Below are positions 5,897 through 20,910 of a stretch of 20,910 bases of DNA, piece by piece. The stretch spans positions 1 through 20,910 of the IMG/VR virus record IMGVR_UViG_3300033985_000058. One strand, given 5' to 3'. Origin of the DNA: a virus. The notes under the pieces were generated by a model. That model was not told the origin of the DNA. It made no database searches and worked only from the letters and a program-made list of their open reading frames with translations. Numbering within the stretch: position 1 is the first letter of the stretch; the number at the start of each line of letters is the position of its first letter. The translations under genes were made by a program, and so were the position numbers.

Positions 5897-7441
5897 ATGT
5901 TTGAAGGGTTGATAAGAGGAAAGATACCAATAATAATAGTAAATACAGTAGAAGTTTTAAGATTTTATAGGCTACTTAAAAATGAATTAGATAATATAAA
6001 TAATAAGTTAGATAAACTAAATATTGATGATGATTATATTAAGACTCACGGATACCAGATATTCACCTTTGATGCCATCTATGGTTTCAAAATTGAAAGT
6101 AACTGTATAGATTACCCAGAAAGATTACTCATAACTAAAGGTGATTCTGATGTGCATACTATGTTAATATCTATATTTACAGACGCCCCTTCAGGAGTAT
6201 ACGTAATACCTATGGCGCACCATATATTTGAGAATTACTATTCAGCAACACTTATGATTGATGCTTGTAGAAAATTTGAAGCTGAAAACAAATATATAAT
6301 ATTGTTAGGTGATGCCTCACAAATGCCATTAGAAATAAGAAACTTAGCAGTAACTGTGGACTTAGGCTTTCCTGATAAGAATGAAATAGCTTTACTTGTT
6401 AAAGAACTTTTAAAAATCAATGAAGTAAAGGTAACAAAAGAACAATTTAAAAAGATAGTAACAGCTATTACAGGAATTAGTTATAAGGAAGCAGAGAATG
6501 GGTTAAAGAAATGGTTAGTAGATATAAACGGTAAAGTAAAAGATGAAGATATTAAAAAATTATTTGGAACTAAAGCAGAATTAGTAAAGAATAGTGGATT
6601 GTTAGAGGTAGTAGAAACAAGTGATACTTTGGAAGATATAGGAGGTATGAATAATCTAAAGAAATGGTCGGAAGAAATAAGTTACATATACAATAGATTA
6701 GATGAAGCTATAGATTTTGGAATAACAATACCTAAAGGATGCTTATTAACAGGCATTTCTGGATGTGGTAAAACATTATTCGCTAAAGCTATAGCAAATA
6801 AATTAGGATTTCCTTTATACAGATTAGATATAGGTAGGTTGTTAGGCTCTCTGGTGGGGGAAACAGAGAGAAACACAAGGGAACTTTTAAAGATGTTAGA
6901 TAGTATAAGCCCTTGTATAATACTATTAGATGAGATTGAAAAGATGTTTTCAGGTATTAACAGTAGTGATAGAACAGATGGAGGTGTAGTATCAAGATTG
7001 ATAGGTAATATGTTATACTATATGGAAGAAAGAAATAAGCCAGCATTCTTTATAGCAACTGCTAATGATATATCTGCACTACCACCAGAGCTACTTAGGA
7101 AAGGCAGATGGGATGAGATTTGGTTTATAGATTTACCGACAGAACAGGAGATTAAAGACATCCTCAGAATACATATTAATAAAAGAGGATGCTCAAAAGA
7201 TAGCACACTGTTTACCTTTATGATTAGAGATGCTAAAAATTTAGTAGGGTTTACAGGTGCTGAGCTTGAACAGATTGTTGAAAACGTTTTCAGAAAACTT
7301 TTTATCTATAAGGATACGGTGCATTTAGCAGATGCCTATAAAGAAATAGTAAGTAATAGTAGTAAGATGGTAGAAAGTAGAAAGAAATATATAGAAGAGC
7401 TCAGAAACTGGGCGTCTATATCAACAAAAAAAGCTAATTAA
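5897..7441 (+). CDS. AAA+ ATPase, Ycf46/SpoVK-like, 514 aa
   Basis: The C-terminal module (about 240-500) is a classical AAA+ domain: Walker A GISGCGKT (286-293), Walker B ILLDEIEK with D345-E346, sensor 1 ATAND (387-391) and arginine-finger region LLRKGRWDE (R401, R404). The N-terminal 240 residues resemble the degenerate ATPase half of Ycf46-type proteins: ILLGDASQMPLEIRN then VDLGFPDKNEIALL, with no P-loop. The family (COG0464) remodels protein complexes; the target here is unknown. AGGAGGTTGCT before the ATG fixes the start. A copy of the 14-bp palindrome lies at 7279-7292. Being just before the origin block, it may act on replication or host proteins, which is inference. Confidence 0.9.
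   Translation: MFEGLIRGKIPIIIVNTVEVLRFYRLLKNELDNINNKLDKLNIDDDYIKTHGYQIFTFDAIYGFKIESNCIDYPERLLITKGDSDVHTMLISIFTDAPSGVYVIPMAHHIFENYYSATLMIDACRKFEAENKYIILLGDASQMPLEIRNLAVTVDLGFPDKNEIALLVKELLKINEVKVTKEQFKKIVTAITGISYKEAENGLKKWLVDINGKVKDEDIKKLFGTKAELVKNSGLLEVVETSDTLEDIGGMNNLKKWSEEISYIYNRLDEAIDFGITIPKGCLLTGISGCGKTLFAKAIANKLGFPLYRLDIGRLLGSLVGETERNTRELLKMLDSISPCIILLDEIEKMFSGINSSDRTDGGVVSRLIGNMLYYMEERNKPAFFIATANDISALPPELLRKGRWDEIWFIDLPTEQEIKDILRIHINKRGCSKDSTLFTFMIRDAKNLVGFTGAELEQIVENVFRKLFIYKDTVHLADAYKEIVSNSSKMVESRKKYIEELRNWASISTKKAN
7279..7292. repeat. Dispersed 14-bp palindrome, exact copy
   Basis: TGAAAACGTTTTCA inside the AAA+ gene, in the codon phase E-N-V-F. Confidence 0.75.
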
Positions 7442-7675: not shown

Positions 7676-8656
7676 ATGGATATATTTTATCTAATACTAC
7701 CACATTTCATAAGAAATAAATTTTCTAATTCTACGGAAACAATACTATACTGCACAATACTTTATTGGTGCGGCGGCTCTAATGAAGATGATATGTCTTG
7801 TTTTATAACAAGAGAATTTCTAACAGGGATAATACCAGAAATAAAATCTACTAAACAAATAACAAGATTATTAACAAGGTTTAAGGAAGCAGGTATAATA
7901 GATATTAATAGAAAATCTAATGGTTTATTTTTAAGAATAACTGCACAAAATTTAACCACTTTAGGATTAACACAGTATGAAATGGAGGCGATTATGAAAA
8001 CATTTTCAAAGAAAAAGAAGGTACTTTTAGAATGCAGCGACGAAGAGAGAAGGGACATTTTGTCCCTAGAGAAGGGACATTTTGTCCCTAGTGAAGGGAC
8101 ATTTTGTCCCCACAGAAGGGACATTTTGTCCCCTGCTTATTATATAAAAAATAAAGAAGAAAAAATAAGAAGTATAAAAAAAGAAGAAAAGACAGAAATT
8201 TCTTACGAAATTTCTGAAGATTACCTTAACCGAAACAAAGTTTCTTCTGTTAAAGCAAAACAAAATACTTTAAGAAAACCAAATATTACTCGGCTGCTGA
8301 AGGAGTATTCAGAATTATATCAAAAATACTTTAACAAGATACCTGATATTTCTAATAGTTATAAAACTAAAAAAGCTTTTGCAGGTATTAGAGCTAACCT
8401 ATTAGAAAAGTATACTTGGGCTGAGTATATAGAGTTCTGCTTTAATAATTGGAGTAAATTAAAACAGGTATTAGTTTGGGAAGATAGCGGTAAACAAAAA
8501 TTAGCAGACCATCCTAACCTATTTGAAATAACTATGGGATATAAACAGATAATGCAATGTATGGAAGAGGGTATGCCTGATACTAATAGTGATAAAGCTA
8601 AGGATAAGTTAGAATCATTAGGTATAAAGATAGTTAAAGTTAAGGAGGGTATATGA
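7676..8656 (+). CDS. Replication initiator (O/DnaD-like) containing origin iterons, 326 aa
   Basis: Residues 1-100 look like the winged-helix module of phage replication initiators (MDIFYLILPHFIRNKF, FITREFLTGIIPEIKSTKQI, RLLTRFKEAGIIDINRKSNG). The middle (about 120-205) is encoded by four iterons followed by a Lys/Glu-rich, low-complexity linker from the AT-rich purine tract. The C-terminal domain (about 205-326, YSELYQKYFNKIPDISNSYK, YIEFCFNNWSKLKQVLVWED) probably contacts the loader or helicase. Direct repeats inside an initiator gene just ahead of loader, helicase and primase genes is the lambda-O arrangement. The start follows AAGGAGTAAAGCT. The palindrome variant TGAAAACATTTTCA is at 7995-8008. 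The family is assigned from context and the wHTH pattern, not from a diagnostic motif. Confidence 0.75.
   Translation: MDIFYLILPHFIRNKFSNSTETILYCTILYWCGGSNEDDMSCFITREFLTGIIPEIKSTKQITRLLTRFKEAGIIDINRKSNGLFLRITAQNLTTLGLTQYEMEAIMKTFSKKKKVLLECSDEERRDILSLEKGHFVPSEGTFCPHRRDILSPAYYIKNKEEKIRSIKKEEKTEISYEISEDYLNRNKVSSVKAKQNTLRKPNITRLLKEYSELYQKYFNKIPDISNSYKTKKAFAGIRANLLEKYTWAEYIEFCFNNWSKLKQVLVWEDSGKQKLADHPNLFEITMGYKQIMQCMEEGMPDTNSDKAKDKLESLGIKIVKVKEGI
7995..8008. repeat. Dispersed 14-bp palindrome, one mismatch
   Basis: TGAAAACATTTTCA, 41 bp before the iteron array, in the codon phase K-T-F-S. Confidence 0.55.
8049..8132 (+). repeat. Replication origin iterons, 4 x 18 bp at exact 22-bp period
   Basis: GAAGGGACATTTTGTCCC occurs without change at 8049-8066, 8071-8088, 8093-8110 and 8115-8132. 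Each holds the dyad GGGACA-TTT-TGTCCC. The 22-bp period is about two helical turns, placing sites on one face. Because 22 is not a multiple of 3, successive copies are read in different frames (RDILS, GHFVP, GTFCP, RDILS), so selection must be on the DNA. The position inside the initiator gene marks this as the probable origin. Confidence 0.88.
8133..8215 (+). other. Probable DNA unwinding element beside iterons
   Basis: Immediately after the iterons lies a run that is almost all A/T with strong strand asymmetry (purines on the + strand, about 8147-8197), as in the lambda origin. It ends in AGAAATTTCT (8194-8203) and a second GAAATTTCT (8207-8215). This is the expected first-melted segment. 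Confidence 0.6.
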
Positions 8657-9111
8657 GAAATTATTTAGCTTCGGCAGGGTTTAGCTATAATATGCTGGAT
8701 AAGCACGATGAGTTTAATCCTACTGAGCAGCATATAACATTACTAAAGGAAATCTATGACAACTTAAAAGATAGGAACATCGTTATCTTTTTAGGAACTG
8801 AGTTAGAGATGATGTATATTTTATCTATAGAATTAGCACAAGCTACAATATCTAACAAAAGAACGGTAGAAGTTTTAACTTTAAATGATGACTATACATT
8901 GGCAAGTAAATCTTATTTAACAGTAATAGATGATGCTTTCTTAGCTAACGATAAACAGAAAGTAATTATTCAAAGAATACTATTTGAAAAATTTAAAAAT
9001 AATAATCCTCTAATAATGTTTTTTCTGGACACCGCAGACATAACAAGAGTGCTGGGTAATATGTTGGATGCTTGTAAGAGTAAGATACAAACTATACAGA
9101 TAGGAGAATAA
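8653..9111 (+). CDS. Helicase-loader-like protein without P-loop, 152 aa
   Basis: The start overlaps the initiator stop (ATGA), with AAGGAGGG before it. The order strand-helix-strand around NIVIFLGTELEMMYILSIEL and LTVIDDAFLANDKQ recalls the Walker A and Walker B regions of DnaC/IstB-like AAA+ loaders, but the P-loop Gly-Lys-Thr is absent (GTELEMM in its place) while a DD pair remains. Residues 110-150 add a further strand and helix (NPLIMFFLDTADITRVLGNM). Its place between initiator and DnaB-like helicase is where phages carry a loader. A degenerate or ATP-independent loader is the likeliest reading; the homology is unproven. Confidence 0.6.
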   Translation: MRNYLASAGFSYNMLDKHDEFNPTEQHITLLKEIYDNLKDRNIVIFLGTELEMMYILSIELAQATISNKRTVEVLTLNDDYTLASKSYLTVIDDAFLANDKQKVIIQRILFEKFKNNNPLIMFFLDTADITRVLGNMLDACKSKIQTIQIGE

Positions 9112-9113
9112 TT

Positions 9114-10364
9114 ATGGCTATAGGTGCTGACTTATTATTTAAAATAGTTAAAGAAAAAAAGTTATCTTATTTTACAAGATTAAACAAAGAATGGTTTTAT
9201 GGTTACGATAGAGATGTGTTTATAGCTATAGAAAAAGTATTCAATACATACAATATGCTTCCATCTTTTGAGGAGTTATCTGATAAGTTTGGATATGATA
9301 AAGCATTAGAGATGCCTCTTAACTATTACATCAATGAATTTACAGAATTTGTTATAGAAAAAAATATAGAGAACACTGCCGAAGATGTTAATAAAATATT
9401 GAAGAGTACCACCCGCTCAAGAAAGGACGCCGTATTAGCCCTAAAACGGCTCGTAGAGAGCACGAAGGAAGTGGAGAGTATAATCACTAGCGAAATAAAA
9501 ACTATCGCTGAGATTGGCTCTGATTACCTTTTAGAGGTATATAACAATAGAGTTATGGAAGCAGGTATAACTACGGGGTGGAAAACACTAGATAAATATA
9601 CTAATGGGCTACAAAAAGGAAACATATTTGCTGTGCTTGCTAGAGTTAAGATGGGTAAGACTGCTGTTATGTTGCATATGGCTAACGCAGCTATGGAATC
9701 AGGGTATAAAGTTATGTTTATAAGTATGGAGATGACAGAAAAAGAAATATTTGATAGATTGTTTGCTTTAAGAAATAAGCTATCAGCCACTCATCTTCAT
9801 ATTAATCAAGTTTCTGATTTTGCACTTAATAAGATTAAACAAGATAATGAGAATTTAAAAAATAAAAATTTCTTATTTTTAGAAGGTAAGTTTAATACCG
9901 ATATAGATAGTATATTAAGTTTAATATTAACACATACACCAGATATAGTTTTTATAGACGGAGCATACCTTATAAAAGAGCAGAGTAATAAAAATAAACA
10001 GATATGGGAACGTATAGGCGATGTAATAGAAAGATTAAAAAGATGCTCTATGTCTATGAATATACCTATAGTGCTTAGCTATCAGTTAAACAGAACAGTA
10101 AGTAGAAATAAATCATCTTTAAAAGATAAGGCATTTGAAGCTATACAGTTATCAGATGCTATATCACAAATAGTATCTACAGGTATAACAATAACTAAAC
10201 CTGAAAAAAGTTATGATGATGTAAGGATACTTGAATTAATAGGCGGTAGAAGAGGTGAGGAAGGTGCTGTTGTTATTAATTGGAAATGGAATCCTATGGA
10301 TTTAAGCGAGTTACCACAAGAAATACAGTACTCAATACTAAGAGAGGAGGGTATTTATGGATAA
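9114..10364 (+). CDS. dnaB: Replicative DNA helicase, DnaB/RecA-fold, 416 aa
   Basis: It unwinds DNA at the fork as a hexamer. An N-terminal helical domain (about 1-130) precedes a RecA-type motor: TTGWKTLDKYTNGLQKGN, Walker A ending in G181-K182-T183, SMEMTEKEIFDR (the SLEM-like motif with E206), Walker B DIVFIDGAYLI (D282), then LSYQLNR and ISQIVSTGI as in DnaB motifs 4 and 5. The P-loop reads ARVKMGKT, so the usual first Gly is Ala. Length is slightly short for DnaB. The ATG is 2 bases after the previous stop with TAGGAGAATAATT. The end overlaps the primase start by 8 bases. Bases 9408-9480 are noticeably richer in G+C than their surroundings. Confidence 0.92.
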   Translation: MAIGADLLFKIVKEKKLSYFTRLNKEWFYGYDRDVFIAIEKVFNTYNMLPSFEELSDKFGYDKALEMPLNYYINEFTEFVIEKNIENTAEDVNKILKSTTRSRKDAVLALKRLVESTKEVESIITSEIKTIAEIGSDYLLEVYNNRVMEAGITTGWKTLDKYTNGLQKGNIFAVLARVKMGKTAVMLHMANAAMESGYKVMFISMEMTEKEIFDRLFALRNKLSATHLHINQVSDFALNKIKQDNENLKNKNFLFLEGKFNTDIDSILSLILTHTPDIVFIDGAYLIKEQSNKNKQIWERIGDVIERLKRCSMSMNIPIVLSYQLNRTVSRNKSSLKDKAFEAIQLSDAISQIVSTGITITKPEKSYDDVRILELIGGRRGEEGAVVINWKWNPMDLSELPQEIQYSILREEGIYG

Positions 10365-11289
10365 ATTAGTAGCTATAGAAATAGCTAAACTATGTAATGC
10401 TAAGTCTATTAACGATAATGAAGAGTATATTATGTTTAATTGTCCTTTTTCCGAAAAGTTACATCCGAAAGGTACAGATAGAAAACCTTCTTTTGGATTA
10501 AACTTTGTTGAAAATGTTTTCAATTGTTTCACTTGTGGTAAGAAAGGGAAAGTAGATATACTCCCTTTTCTATTAATAGAATTGTACGGAGAGAGTGAAG
10601 CCTATTCACAAATGATAGACGTTATAAATAACAATAGAGTTATAGAGTTTAAGATACCTGATAAAAATGTTGATAAAATAAAACCATTACCGTTTAAAAT
10701 TCTACAAGAGTTTGAACCACTTGATGAAACTATAAAATTTATAACTCCTGCTATGGCAGAAGAACATTTGATATTTAAAAATAGCTTGACAACAAAATTA
10801 TTTTTTGCTATATTAGATGGTAACAAAAACTTAGTATCCATCCTAGCTAGACGTATAGATTCTGGTGATAGATATTATGTTACGCATATAAAGAATATGC
10901 AATTGCCAGGTAATAAGCCTAAGAAGGCAGGAGTATGGTACGGTATGTATGATAATAATATTTCAAAGCCTTTAGTTTTAGTTGAAGGAGAAAGGGACAG
11001 AGTTCTATTAAGAAAATATTATGATAACGTATGGGCTGCATTAGGCAGTCAAATAACAGAGCAAATGCTGCAAACATTATCTAAGGTTAGTAATAGGCAT
11101 ATTATACTTTTCTTTGATAATGATTTAGCAGGGCATAAAGCTAAAAAGGAGGTGAGTAAATACCTACGTAATACGCATTGTCTTAGAACAATAAGGGATT
11201 ATAAGGGTTGTAAAGACCCCGCTGAAGCCTGCGAGAAAGGCATAATCAAAGACGTACTGTCTAAAAATAACTTGGAGGTAGTTCTATGA
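10357..11289 (+). CDS. dnaG: DNA primase, DnaG-like, 310 aa
   Basis: It makes RNA primers for the fork. The N-terminal zinc domain reads C29-PFSEKL-H36 ... C57-FT-C60, a CHC2-type site in which the His of the canonical CPFH is replaced by Ser and a later His probably serves. DRKPSFGLNF matches the CHC2 signature. The TOPRIM core follows: LVLVEGERD (E210) and HIILFFDNDLAGHKA (D254, D256). At 310 residues it lacks the long helicase-binding C-terminus of bacterial DnaG, as is common in phages. AGAGGAGGGTATTT precedes the ATG, which overlaps the helicase gene by 8 bases. A one-mismatch copy of the 14-bp palindrome is at 10509-10522. Confidence 0.9.
   Translation: MDKLVAIEIAKLCNAKSINDNEEYIMFNCPFSEKLHPKGTDRKPSFGLNFVENVFNCFTCGKKGKVDILPFLLIELYGESEAYSQMIDVINNNRVIEFKIPDKNVDKIKPLPFKILQEFEPLDETIKFITPAMAEEHLIFKNSLTTKLFFAILDGNKNLVSILARRIDSGDRYYVTHIKNMQLPGNKPKKAGVWYGMYDNNISKPLVLVEGERDRVLLRKYYDNVWAALGSQITEQMLQTLSKVSNRHIILFFDNDLAGHKAKKEVSKYLRNTHCLRTIRDYKGCKDPAEACEKGIIKDVLSKNNLEVVL
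10509..10522. repeat. Dispersed 14-bp palindrome, one mismatch
   Basis: TGAAAATGTTTTCA in the primase gene, in the codon phase E-N-V-F. Confidence 0.55.
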
Positions 11290-17476: not shown

Positions 17477-17862
17477 TTAGTATTAAATTAACACAGGATG
17501 CTTTAGAAGTATTTGAAAACGTTTTCAAAACTCTTACTCCTAAAGATGTATTAGAGATATCTAAAAAGTTAGGGTATGAAACTAGAACTACTTTATGGTG
17601 CTTTTTAAATGGTACGCAGTCTTTACCTTTGGATAAGTTTTTAAAACTTATGGAATATGTCGAGTATGAAAATACTGTAATATTAGAAGCCTCAGCTAAG
17701 CGTAGGTATGAAGGGGTTATAAAAGATTCTACAATAGAAATACGGGATACAGAATTGCGTAATCTCTTAATACAAGAGTTATTAGTTAATGGGGAAGAGG
17801 TTGTAAAAAATATATTTGATTTAGGTAAGAGATTATATTTTGGTTATGAGGTGCAAAGATGA
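17473..17862 (+). CDS. Possible HTH-type protein, 129 aa
   Basis: Residues 23-62 (TPKDVLEISKKLGYETRTTL then a turn FLNGTQSLPLDKFLKLMEYV) have the spacing of an XRE/Cro-like helix-turn-helix, where LNGTQSLPLDKF matches the region after the recognition helix. The C-terminal half is an acidic/basic helical domain. GGGGGGTTAGT precedes the ATG (overlap ATGA with the previous gene). An exact palindrome copy sits 41 bases after the start, at 17514-17527. It could be a small regulator, perhaps of the polymerase gene that overlaps its stop; this is speculative. Confidence 0.6.
   Translation: MISIKLTQDALEVFENVFKTLTPKDVLEISKKLGYETRTTLWCFLNGTQSLPLDKFLKLMEYVEYENTVILEASAKRRYEGVIKDSTIEIRDTELRNLLIQELLVNGEEVVKNIFDLGKRLYFGYEVQR
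17514..17527. repeat. Dispersed 14-bp palindrome, exact copy
   Basis: TGAAAACGTTTTCA near the start of the HTH-like gene, in the codon phase E-N-V-F. Confidence 0.75.
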
Positions 17863-20800
17863 CTTGTGAAGGTTGCCCTTATAATGGGGCTAAAAAAATA
17901 AAATATAGATTAGTAGAAAATACTGACATTATGATAATTCAAGAAGCTCCTACAAGAGAGGAGCTTCTGAATGGGAAGTTGCTATGCGGCAGGAGTGGGC
18001 AGCTCCTGAAACAGTTAATAACTAAGTATCAACTTAATAATTATAATATTAGTTTTGTGTATTCTTGCAAGTGTGAAATAAATAAACAAGATAAAAAAGA
18101 AGCTAACGCTGCTGTAAAAATATGTAAGCCTAATGTATTAGAAGCAATTAATAAAGTTAAGCCTAAGATTATTGTTACCTTTGGTGAGTTAGCGTCTAAG
18201 CAGTTATTAGGTAGTAAAATATCTGGTGGTATATTAGCAAACAGAGGGAGAATAATACATAATGATGAGTTAGATGTTGATATATTTATAGCTGTACACC
18301 CAGAATATGTTCTTAGAGGCTGTTCTAATAACTACCCTAATAAACCGTACGAACTTATGAGTCCTAAAGAAAGAATGATATTTGATGATATATCACTTCT
18401 ACAAAAAGTTTGTGAAAACGATTTCAAATCTTTAGGGATAAATACTGAAAACTATAAAGAAGCAACCTTAAAAGATTTAGAAGATATATCCAAGTCTAAA
18501 GTGGTAGCTGTGGATATAGAAACTACAGGCGTAGGTATAGGAAACAATATTAAAATATTATCTATATCTTTTAGTTGTAAGCCAGAGCATTCCAGAGTTG
18601 TATTGCTTAAAGATGGGGATATTCAAGATATTAATATAAAGAGTAAAGTTAATGAAATACTAACTAATGAGAATATAAGTAAAGTTGTAGCTGGTAGACC
18701 TTTTGATGAAAATATGTGGAAGAAGAAGCTAGGTGTAGAATGGAAAGGCAACATACACGATGTACTTGTTATGGCTCACCTAGTAAATGAAAACTTACCT
18801 AATGGGTATAACTTAGAAAGTGTAGCAGAAACATTTGCACATATGAGAAACATAAAAGATGTTGCTAAAGGTAAACGAAAATGTCTAACAGAAGAAGATA
18901 AAGATATATTGATTAGATATAATGGTGTAGACTCTGATGCAACTATAAGAGTATATCTAAAATTGAAAGAAGAACTTAGTAAAGATAAATTACTATTAAG
19001 ATACTATATGAAGTTCTTAAAGCCAGTACTTGATATGTATGCAGACATAGGTTTCTATGGGTTTCCACTTAATATAAATGACATTAAAGACTCAGAGAAT
19101 AATTTATCAGTATTAGCAGAAGAATTACACAACTCATTAATAGATGAGCTACCTACTTTAATAAAAGTTATGCACGAAAAAAAAGGTTTGAAACTTAGCC
19201 GTTCAGACTTAATTTTAGATTATATGTTTGGCAATAAGAAATTTACACTAGGGCTGAAGCCTAAAAAATTTACTAATAAGACTATGAAACCTGCAACAGA
19301 TGAGAAACATCTTAAAGAATTTTCAAATATAAAATGGGTTAGTGGACTGCTTAGGTGGAAGAAAGCTAACAAATTACTAACAACATATTATCCGCAATTG
19401 TATAGTGCTATAAATGATGATGGGTGTATATACCCTACTACATTGTTTACAAATACTGTTACAGGAAGGACAGTAGTTCTCAATCCTACTATACAAACAA
19501 TACCACAGAGAGGGGAATTTGCTGGGTATATAAAGAAAATATTTAAAGCTCCTGATGGTTGGAAATTATGTACCAGAGATTTAGCACAATCAGAGCTACG
19601 TATTATAGGTTGGATGGCTAAAGATAAAAACATATTGGATGCTCTTAATAAAGGTATAGACTTGCACACAAAAACAGCGGCTATTGTTAATAACATAGAC
19701 GTATCAAAAGTAACTAAAGATATGAGGCAAAAAGCAAAACCTGTAAACTTTGGTTTCTGTTTAACACCAGATACTATGATAACTACAGATAGAGGTTTGA
19801 TTCCTATAACTTGTGTTAGAGTAGGGGATAAAGTATATACTCATAAACATAGGTGGAAACGAGTTACAGCTCTCCAAAAATTGCACGCTGATATTATATT
19901 AGAGATAAGGACTAATACAGGCAAAGTAGTTAAATGCACAAAAGACCATAAATGGTTGACTGTTCTTCCTGCTGGTAATCATAAAAAAAATACTTATGTG
20001 TTTAAAGAAGCTTGTAAGTTAACTGTTGGGGATAATTTAGTATTTGGGGGTATAAGGGACGAAGTGCCTACTGAGATAGATAATGATTACTTAGTATTAG
20101 GGTGGTTTTTATCAGAAGGTAGTGTGTTCTGTAAAAAAGGAGTAAATGTTACTATAAAACAACATATTTATAAGAATAAAGATGTGTTTGATAGAATGAA
20201 GAAAATACTACCTGATTATGATTTTACTTGCTATATAGATTATGAATTTAAAATAGCATCTTTTATAGCTTATAATAAGAAAAGTAGGATATACAATCTA
20301 TTAGATTCTAAGTTATATGAAAAGTATAGTTATAGTAAAGACAAGAGCACAAAAGGATTGGATATTCATTCTCTGGATACTAAAAAAGTAATAAGTCTGC
20401 TGGCAGGTTTATATGATGGAGATGGTTGTATTACCATGAGTAACAATAGATTGAATATTGTATATATTAGTAAAAGCGAATATCTGATAAAAGATGTTCA
20501 AACACTTTTATTAAGAGTAGGGATAAATTCTAAGATATATAAATACGACAATAGAAATGTTTTTGAATTATATGTGGTTGGCAGCAATAGTAAGTTAAGA
20601 TTCTTAAAAATAATACCTACTATTAAAACAAAAAGAGTAAATTACAACCCAAAGAAAATGTTTGTGGATAAAGAAAAAATAATATCCATAAAGGAAATCA
20701 AATATAACGATTATGTTTATGATTTTACTGTAGAAGACGACCATAGCTTTGTGGCTAATGGTTTGTTTAGTCATAATTGTTATGGGATGCAAGCTAAATC

Positions 20801-20910
20801 TTTTGTAACCTATGCTAAAGATTATTATGGAGTTGATTTCACCTTAGAAGAAGCAGAAAATGTAAGAAAGAATTTCTTTGCGTACCCAACAGGTTATTAT
20901 AAATTACCAG
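17859..20910 (+). CDS. polA: Uracil-DNA-glycosylase-like / 3'-5' exonuclease / family A DNA polymerase fusion with intein (3' end outside window)
   Basis: This is the replicative polymerase. It starts in the overlap ATGA with the previous stop and stays open to the window edge. Residues 1-170 resemble family 4/5 UDG: C3, C6, C72, C89 (Fe-S spacing), QEAP (E29), CGRSGQLL, and HPEYVLR (H147). Residues 210-370 are a DEDDy exonuclease: DIET (D219, E221), RPFDEN (D283), Y354-xxx-D358. The polymerase follows: motif A DLAQSELR (D574, E579) and motif B R623-x3-K627-PVNFGF, resuming CYGM after the intein; motif C lies beyond the window. UDG-like domains fused to family A polymerases occur in SPO1-like phages. 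GGTGCAAAG precedes the ATG, a weak site, so coupling to the upstream gene is likely. The UDG domain may detect uracil or only tether the enzyme; its catalytic residues differ (QEAPT rather than GEAPG). Confidence 0.9.
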   Translation, partial: MTCEGCPYNGAKKIKYRLVENTDIMIIQEAPTREELLNGKLLCGRSGQLLKQLITKYQLNNYNISFVYSCKCEINKQDKKEANAAVKICKPNVLEAINKVKPKIIVTFGELASKQLLGSKISGGILANRGRIIHNDELDVDIFIAVHPEYVLRGCSNNYPNKPYELMSPKERMIFDDISLLQKVCENDFKSLGINTENYKEATLKDLEDISKSKVVAVDIETTGVGIGNNIKILSISFSCKPEHSRVVLLKDGDIQDINIKSKVNEILTNENISKVVAGRPFDENMWKKKLGVEWKGNIHDVLVMAHLVNENLPNGYNLESVAETFAHMRNIKDVAKGKRKCLTEEDKDILIRYNGVDSDATIRVYLKLKEELSKDKLLLRYYMKFLKPVLDMYADIGFYGFPLNINDIKDSENNLSVLAEELHNSLIDELPTLIKVMHEKKGLKLSRSDLILDYMFGNKKFTLGLKPKKFTNKTMKPATDEKHLKEFSNIKWVSGLLRWKKANKLLTTYYPQLYSAINDDGCIYPTTLFTNTVTGRTVVLNPTIQTIPQRGEFAGYIKKIFKAPDGWKLCTRDLAQSELRIIGWMAKDKNILDALNKGIDLHTKTAAIVNNIDVSKVTKDMRQKAKPVNFGFCLTPDTMITTDRGLIPITCVRVGDKVYTHKHRWKRVTALQKLHADIILEIRTNTGKVVKCTKDHKWLTVLPAGNHKKNTYVFKEACKLTVGDNLVFGGIRDEVPTEIDNDYLVLGWFLSEGSVFCKKGVNVTIKQHIYKNKDVFDRMKKILPDYDFTCYIDYEFKIASFIAYNKKSRIYNLLDSKLYEKYSYSKDKSTKGLDIHSLDTKKVISLLAGLYDGDGCITMSNNRLNIVYISKSEYLIKDVQTLLLRVGINSKIYKYDNRNVFELYVVGSNSKLRFLKIIPTIKTKRVNYNPKKMFVDKEKIISIKEIKYNDYVYDFTVEDDHSFVANGLFSHNCYGMQAKSFVTYAKDYYGVDFTLEEAENVRKNFFAYPTGYYKLP
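17942..17968 (+). other. Intragenic 10-bp hairpin in UDG-like domain
   Basis: AGAAGCTCCT (17942-17951) pairs with AGGAGCTTCT (17959-17968) around a 7-base loop. It encodes the EAPTREELLN stretch at the catalytic motif. It may slow or regulate early translation of the polymerase, or be chance constrained by codon choice. Confidence 0.4.
18413..18426. repeat. Dispersed 14-bp palindrome, one mismatch
   Basis: TGAAAACGATTTCA in the polymerase gene, between the UDG and exonuclease domains, in the codon phase E-N-D-F. Confidence 0.55.
19758..20777 (+). mobile_element. Intein with LAGLIDADG homing endonuclease in Pol motif B, 340 aa
   Basis: The reading frame is continuous, but NFGF and CYGM of polymerase motif B are separated by 340 residues with all splicing blocks: C1 and block A CLTPDTMITTDRG, block B CTKDHKW (Thr/His), block F YDFTVEDDHSFVANG, and block G LFSHN followed by Cys +1 of the C-extein. 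Two endonuclease motifs are present, LVLGWFLSEGS (from 112) and LAGLYDGDG (215-223), each with an acidic residue, so homing activity is probably intact. Splicing would restore K627, F631 and Y635, the equivalents of E. coli Pol I K758, F762 and Y766. Boundaries are set by the block residues and the repaired motif. Confidence 0.95.

Follow-up and report, generated by a model that had tools for sequence, protein, structure and literature searches.

Four iterons inside a putative phage initiator gene: a probable lambda-O/SPP1-gp38-type replication origin in an uncultivated virus

Why would a phage carry, in the middle of a coding sequence, four identical copies of an 18-bp palindromic unit? The question is raised by the uncultivated virus IMGVR_UViG_3300033985_000058, whose full record of 20,910 bp (31% G+C, almost all genes being on the + strand) is the stretch of DNA analysed here, called the window. 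A first-pass annotation, made from the sequence alone, had read these units as the iterons of a replication origin lying inside the gene of its own initiator. The elements concerned are the following.

7676..8656, + strand: putative initiator gene, 326 aa (ORF, AF2 model, C-terminal profile match, wHTH fold matches)
8049..8132, + strand: iteron array, four copies of GAAGGGACATTTTGTCCC with a 22-bp period and a GGGACA-TTT-TGTCCC dyad in each unit
8133..8192, + strand: purine-rich A+T tract, candidate DNA unwinding element (composition, low duplex stability)
8193..8216, no strand: inverted repeat with 10-bp arms and a 4-bp loop, holding two GAAATTTC palindromes (repeat search)

The GAAGGGACATTTTGTCCC units occupy positions 8049-8066, 8071-8088, 8093-8110 and 8115-8132, mid-ORF and about 370 bp into the gene: they are identical at 18/18 bp, their period is exactly 22, and the dyad is perfect in all four. 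Repeat mapping and TRF, which returns 8046-8132 as 22 x 4.0, thus bear out the first description of the array. The window holds no further copy of GAAGGGACATTTTGTCCC, even allowing 3 mismatches, and 100 shuffles gave a mean of 0.14 matches. The open literature searched does not contain the exact iteron strings.

Are the copies kept for the protein or for the DNA? Relative to the ORF 7676-8656, the frame offsets of iterons 1 to 4 are 1, 2, 0 and 1, and the encoded peptides are RRDILS, KGHFVP, EGTFCP and RRDILS. The earlier statement that the copies encode different peptides in turn thus holds for copies 1, 2 and 3, which are read in three frames; copy 4 returns to the frame of copy 1. The companion claim, that the array is kept for its DNA, stands: the four copies are identical across three reading frames, and the best 18-mer repeat in the gene scores 18/18, versus at most 14/18 in codon-shuffled versions. 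Conservation in the array acts on the DNA, not on the peptide. That the array is a protein-level repeat, or a neutral tandem duplication without function in the DNA, is highly improbable: slippage can create tandem repeats, and the genes at the corresponding place in two other loci (L078 and L092) have repeats that look protein-level, but a 22-bp period is not divisible by 3, identical copies yield different peptides, and arrays lie at the corresponding site in many relatives.

Directly 3' of the iterons, positions 8133-8200 are 82% A+T and 76% purine, a purine content above the 99.9th percentile of the window. The duplex stability of the A+T tract falls in the lowest 0.3% of 50-bp windows (99.7th percentile at 8136), without being the single lowest, and the Lys/Glu/Asn-rich linker that it encodes could be a partial cause of its A+T richness. 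The palindrome GAAATTTC has exactly two sites in the window, at 8195 and 8207, both within the inverted repeat 8193-8216; the asymmetric purine-rich tract and the two palindromes noted at first pass are thus both recovered. The GC skew that had been proposed as a check does not deliver one: skew is positive over the whole window, without an inflection near 8.1 kb, and is neither a help for the origin reading nor a refutation of it.

Four genes around the array frame the argument.

5897..7441, + strand: AAA+ ATPase, before the initiator gene and in the same order in distant relatives (PF00004 E=5e-28, phrog_8638, synteny)
8653..9111, + strand: 152-aa ORF in the helicase-loader position, the slot of lambda P and SPP1 gp39 (position)
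9114..10364, + strand: DnaB-family replicative helicase (PF03796 E=2e-29, phrog_19 E=2e-49)
10357..11289, + strand: DNA primase with Toprim and CHC2 zinc finger (Pfam/PHROG matches)

The product of the 152-aa ORF is homologous to that of the ORF in the corresponding slot of L055, a related locus described below (phmmer E=8e-6), and its position suggests a helicase loader. After the primase come an SSB-like protein, a DEAD helicase, a UvsX/RecA recombinase, a Cas4-like exonuclease and a family A DNA polymerase.

The polymerase, encoded by the ORF 17859-20909, has an N-terminal uracil-DNA-glycosylase domain and a 3'-5' exonuclease, and at 19758-20777 a 340-aa in-frame intein with a LAGLIDADG domain is inserted at NFGF/CYGM in its polymerase domain. 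Elsewhere in the window, positions 37-660 encode a 207-aa protein with about 18 pentapeptide repeats of the NSGNW type (Pentapeptide_2 E=2e-20), themselves encoded by a 15-bp tandem repeat at 72-336.

What kind of protein does the array-bearing gene encode? Comparison of the putative initiator with Pfam, PHROG and NCBIfam gives no convincing family match, and direct sequence homologues were found neither in IMG/VR nor among phages and plasmids. Against Phage_rep_O (PF04492), with its curated score as the threshold, the window protein has no match; nor does it look like a Rep_3/RepA initiator of iteron plasmids, since it has no Pfam or NCBIfam initiator match and its array is inside the gene. 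An AF2 model built from 21 proteins of this gene slot (mean pLDDT 67) predicts an N-terminal wHTH at aa ~1-130, a low-confidence linker at aa ~129-199 and a confident helical C-terminal domain at aa ~200-315; a single-sequence run recovered the wHTH alone. It is the linker codons that hold the origin-like DNA: the iterons are codons 125-152 and the A+T tract is codons 153-180. In the predicted structure the N-domain resembles the wHTH of CRP (Z 8.2, 1.8 Å over 67 aa) and, less closely, the DnaD N-terminal domain (Z 7.0, 4.3 Å over 92 aa) and RepA-type initiators (Z 7.5 and 6.9), all Z values being in the range typical of common folds. The C-terminal domain is barely covered by structure matches.

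A predicted wHTH fold like that of MarR/CRP regulators could equally belong to a repressor, and the array would then be an operator at which the protein represses or roadblocks transcription of its own gene or operon; a promoter-like 11/12 match at 7871-7899, upstream of the array, goes in the same direction. But such an operator would lie deep inside the gene, and the array has no second site in the window; after it come a DUE-like tract and then the helicase gene; moreover, relatives hold the position of the array and not its sequence, and several homologues match replication-initiation families. We thus regard an operator in place of an origin as unlikely. Initiators often autoregulate too, and the two roles may coexist.

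Do other phages keep such a gene, and such an array, in the same place? Matches to the ATPase, DnaB and UvsX lead to large siphophages of Vibrio, Aeromonas, Rhizobium, Rhodobacter and Pseudomonas, in which the recurrent order is ATPase … initiator-slot ORF, ~190-aa ORF, DnaB: it is found in Aeromonas HJ05, Rhizobium L338C, Rhodobacter RcDurkin/RcZahn, Vibrio and Pseudomonas PA_L9 phages. Existing annotation calls the slot ORF helix-turn-helix in RcDurkin, RcZahn and Vibrio 1.215. The slot protein of HJ05, gp70, reaches 5.6e-5 against Phage_rep_O (PF04492), with a score of 24.0 that is below the cut-off of 28.7, and replication initiation 'O-like' families are matched by those of L055 (phrog_678, 1.1e-5) and L338C (4.6e-7).

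A profile of the C-terminal domain, derived from the slot proteins of these distant phages, retrieves the window initiator with E=3e-6, the best of 2000 shuffled versions giving only 0.41; the profile was made without the window protein, but its columns come from an alignment that includes it, which leaves a small circularity. With an N-terminal profile from the relatives, the window protein does not rise above shuffled controls, and its homology consequently rests on the C-terminal domain, the synteny and the model.

In several of these phages the slot gene has an array at the corresponding relative place, in the linker region. Repeats are GGGACACTGGTGTCC x2 at 23 bp in Aeromonas HJ05, CCAAAATTTGG x2 at 22 bp in Pseudomonas PA_L9, GGTGCAGATATGCACC x3 at 23 bp in RcZahn, a GATC-N3-GATC type at ~22 bp in Vibrio KarBoss, CTGACAAATTGTCAGG at 22 bp in V-YDF132, and GGGACATTGTGTCCC, with a less regular spacing, in Rhizobium L338C. 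The slot genes of RcDurkin, Vibrio 29Fa.3, Vibrio 1.215 and TM16 have no clear array: the array is thus either not universal or diverged past detection.

Scanning IMG/VR with DnaB or the AAA+ ATPase as single proteins brought up no relatives of the window initiator; ten aligned DnaB proteins, used together, fetched 80 IMG/VR loci, in which an array was defined as an 18-bp repeat with at least 16/18 identity and 19-26 bp spacing, and upstream ORFs as those within 3.5 kb of dnaB. Near dnaB, arrays occur in 25/265 upstream ORFs versus 1/440 downstream, counts in which some contigs are near-duplicates and the upstream matches in L078, L092 and L121-123 look protein-level; among distinct slot ORFs, 17/39 have an array. 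Its sequence is usually specific to the phage among related slots. When spacings from 12 to 90 bp are searched, the best one is 21-24 bp or its double in 18/22 arrays, and codon shuffles yield almost no arrays. Within the gene, the A+T content of the 50 bp flanking an array has a median percentile of 0.89 just 3' versus 0.45 just 5'. The slot proteins of these IMG/VR relatives are 10-19% identical to the window initiator. The closest relative is L055, with 43% identity in DnaB: its initiator of 325 aa contains 22-bp iterons AAGGGTMGCRAAACACTACC, built on another core and followed by an A+T tract.

These relatives also bear on whether the element acts as RNA, the dyads folding into hairpins in the mRNA and so controlling translation or termination within the gene. 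The array does fold, at -54 kcal/mol (z -7.5 versus shuffles), as is expected of any perfect dyad array. It also contains terminator-like matches, which we set aside as evidence, since perfect dyads yield hairpin-terminator matches anyway. However, the clustering of the relatives' periods at 21-24 bp or twice that corresponds to helical phasing, the units of L057 and L058 have weak dyads or none, and staphylococcal plasmids have similar 22-bp iterons without the full dyad, upstream of the Rep gene. A function in the RNA is thus very unlikely.

Could the repeats instead be a partition or packaging site, parS or pac-like, that lies in the initiator gene by chance? Repeats of this size can act as parS, and in mycobacteriophages parS repeats adjoin repA (PMC7157519). 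But it is in the initiator slot upstream of dnaB that arrays recur, and the neighbours scanned, a subset of the ORFs, include no ParA/ParB-like gene; we give this reading hardly any credence.

The iteron motif of the window reaches beyond this clade, into unrelated initiator genes of the wHTH/O-like kind. Pairs of GGGACA-N3-TGTCCC are found on 8 IMG/VR contigs, versus 0 for a control of the same composition, and also on 15 genome contigs. In L006, L008, L009, L012, L014, L015, L023, L024 and L027 the array is inside an ORF matching a replication-initiation, O-like or DnaD-like PHROG, and a later scan added the GGGACA-array loci L129/L133, L131, L138 and L139, all HTH_36 proteins. Plasmids of Staphylococcus, Enterococcus and Acinetobacter have sequence-related 22-bp iterons starting AAAGGGACATTTTGT or AAGGACATTTTGTC; in NC_007171.1 (L028:321-430), CP130870.1 (L029) and NZ_AP024808.1 (L030), the 22-bp iterons start A(A)AGGGACATTTTGT or AAGGACATTTTGTC.

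The same searches met the motif in other settings. Initiator-like HTH_36 + DnaA_N proteins at L138:3926-5005 and L131:5570-6898 have GGGACA iterons between both domains. At L127:8506-8554, L132:5299-5347 and L134:10293-10341, a gene that we named by eye as a RecB/Cas4-like exonuclease begins with a GGGACA dyad pair, and a short HTH-like ORF adjoins it; this pair is possibly an operator rather than an origin. A Tannerella MAG has 23-bp GGGACAC..TGTCCC tandem repeats on at least 5 contigs (L017, L018, L020, L021, L026), intermixed with other palindromic tandem repeats; these are not in initiator genes and were left out.

If initiators bind these arrays, the iterons might be reflected in the wHTH. 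The first-pass annotation had proposed comparing iterons with the matching N-termini in related phages. GGGACA iterons tend to be accompanied by a recognition-helix signature with K/R at position 3 and R at position 7. In the defining sets the signature is present in 11/14 proteins with GGGACA-type iterons versus 2/12, and in contigs fetched later in 4/4 (three independent) versus 4/24 with other or no detected iterons; recognition helices were assigned by eye and phylogeny confounds these counts, which are thus exploratory. The window initiator has the signature, as STKQITR. It is conceivable, at somewhat less than even odds, that in a broad phage clade the initiator gene works as a lock-and-key cassette that evolves fast: the origin would stay fixed in the linker codons while the iterons and the wHTH recognition helix change together, giving near-private origins.

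Three features of a lambda-O/SPP1-gp38-type origin can be recognized in the window: iterons within the initiator coding sequence (ORF 7676-8656), an A+T tract of low duplex stability adjoining them (8133-8192), and an initiator with a predicted N-terminal winged helix and a separate C-terminal domain. Of the expected helicase and loader neighbours, DnaB (9114-10364) is clear, and the ORF 8653-9111 is a candidate loader by its position and its L055 homologue. Since this anatomy and gene order are those of lambda ori and SPP1 oriL, the locus is most probably a theta origin within its own initiator gene, a reading to which we assign a probability of about 0.86. The initial origin proposal is thus supported by the synteny, the common C-terminal domain, the iterons in slot genes, the GGGACA arrays in O-like and DnaD-like genes, and the lambda and SPP1 precedents. 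In such an origin, the wHTH of the 326-aa protein would bind the four GGGACA-TTT-TGTCCC iterons; since these are two helical turns apart, the bound protomers would sit on one face of the DNA and wrap it. The complex would then melt the adjoining purine-rich A+T tract, the C-terminal domain and the 152-aa product would load the DnaB encoded alongside, and the primase would begin synthesis.

In-gene origins are textbook matter for lambda and SPP1, and the one proposed here is thus not a new principle. A sequence-orphan gene gains an assigned origin and initiator role, and the in-gene arrangement recurs across diverse phages with their own DnaB, where the slot genes are mostly annotated 'hypothetical'. 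What matters most is the collection, across the clade, of iteron–initiator pairs that change rapidly: with iterons and wHTH locked in one gene, each pair could help to reveal the DNA-recognition code of winged-helix initiators. The arrangement also provides a simple rule for locating phage origins in metagenomes.

How does the locus compare with known systems? Rep iteron plasmids such as pSHaeC share 22-bp iterons related in sequence, but those of pSHaeC precede the rep gene instead of lying within it and are without the full palindrome, and its RepB/RepE-like initiator belongs to another family. The large siphophages share the AAA+ ATPase, the wHTH protein with an in-gene array, the ~190-aa ORF and DnaB, with a common C-terminal domain, but their iteron sequence changes in nearly every phage.

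The lambda origin, experimentally established, consists of 4 iterons with an A+T tract and is placed mid-way in the O gene (PMC7466680); the first-pass annotation, too, had pointed to lambda-type phages. The window shares this layout, the N-terminal DNA-binding domain and a gene for a putative helicase-loading partner next in line; it differs by its iteron sequence, its exact 22-bp period, and by encoding DnaB and primase itself. Sequence comparison does not link the window protein directly to lambda O: the likeness is architectural, and homology passes through relatives such as HJ05, whose gp70, in the corresponding slot, matches Phage_rep_O below the cut-off. SPP1, the other experimentally established precedent, has a second origin, oriR, outside gene 38; at oriL, gp38 binds direct repeats inside gene 38, beside an A+T unwinding element, and the genes for the loader gp39 and the helicase gp40 follow (PMC6316719). 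The window presents the elements of this 38-39-40 cassette in the same order: an initiator gene with direct repeats and a candidate DUE, a small gene in the loader position, and a DnaB-family helicase.
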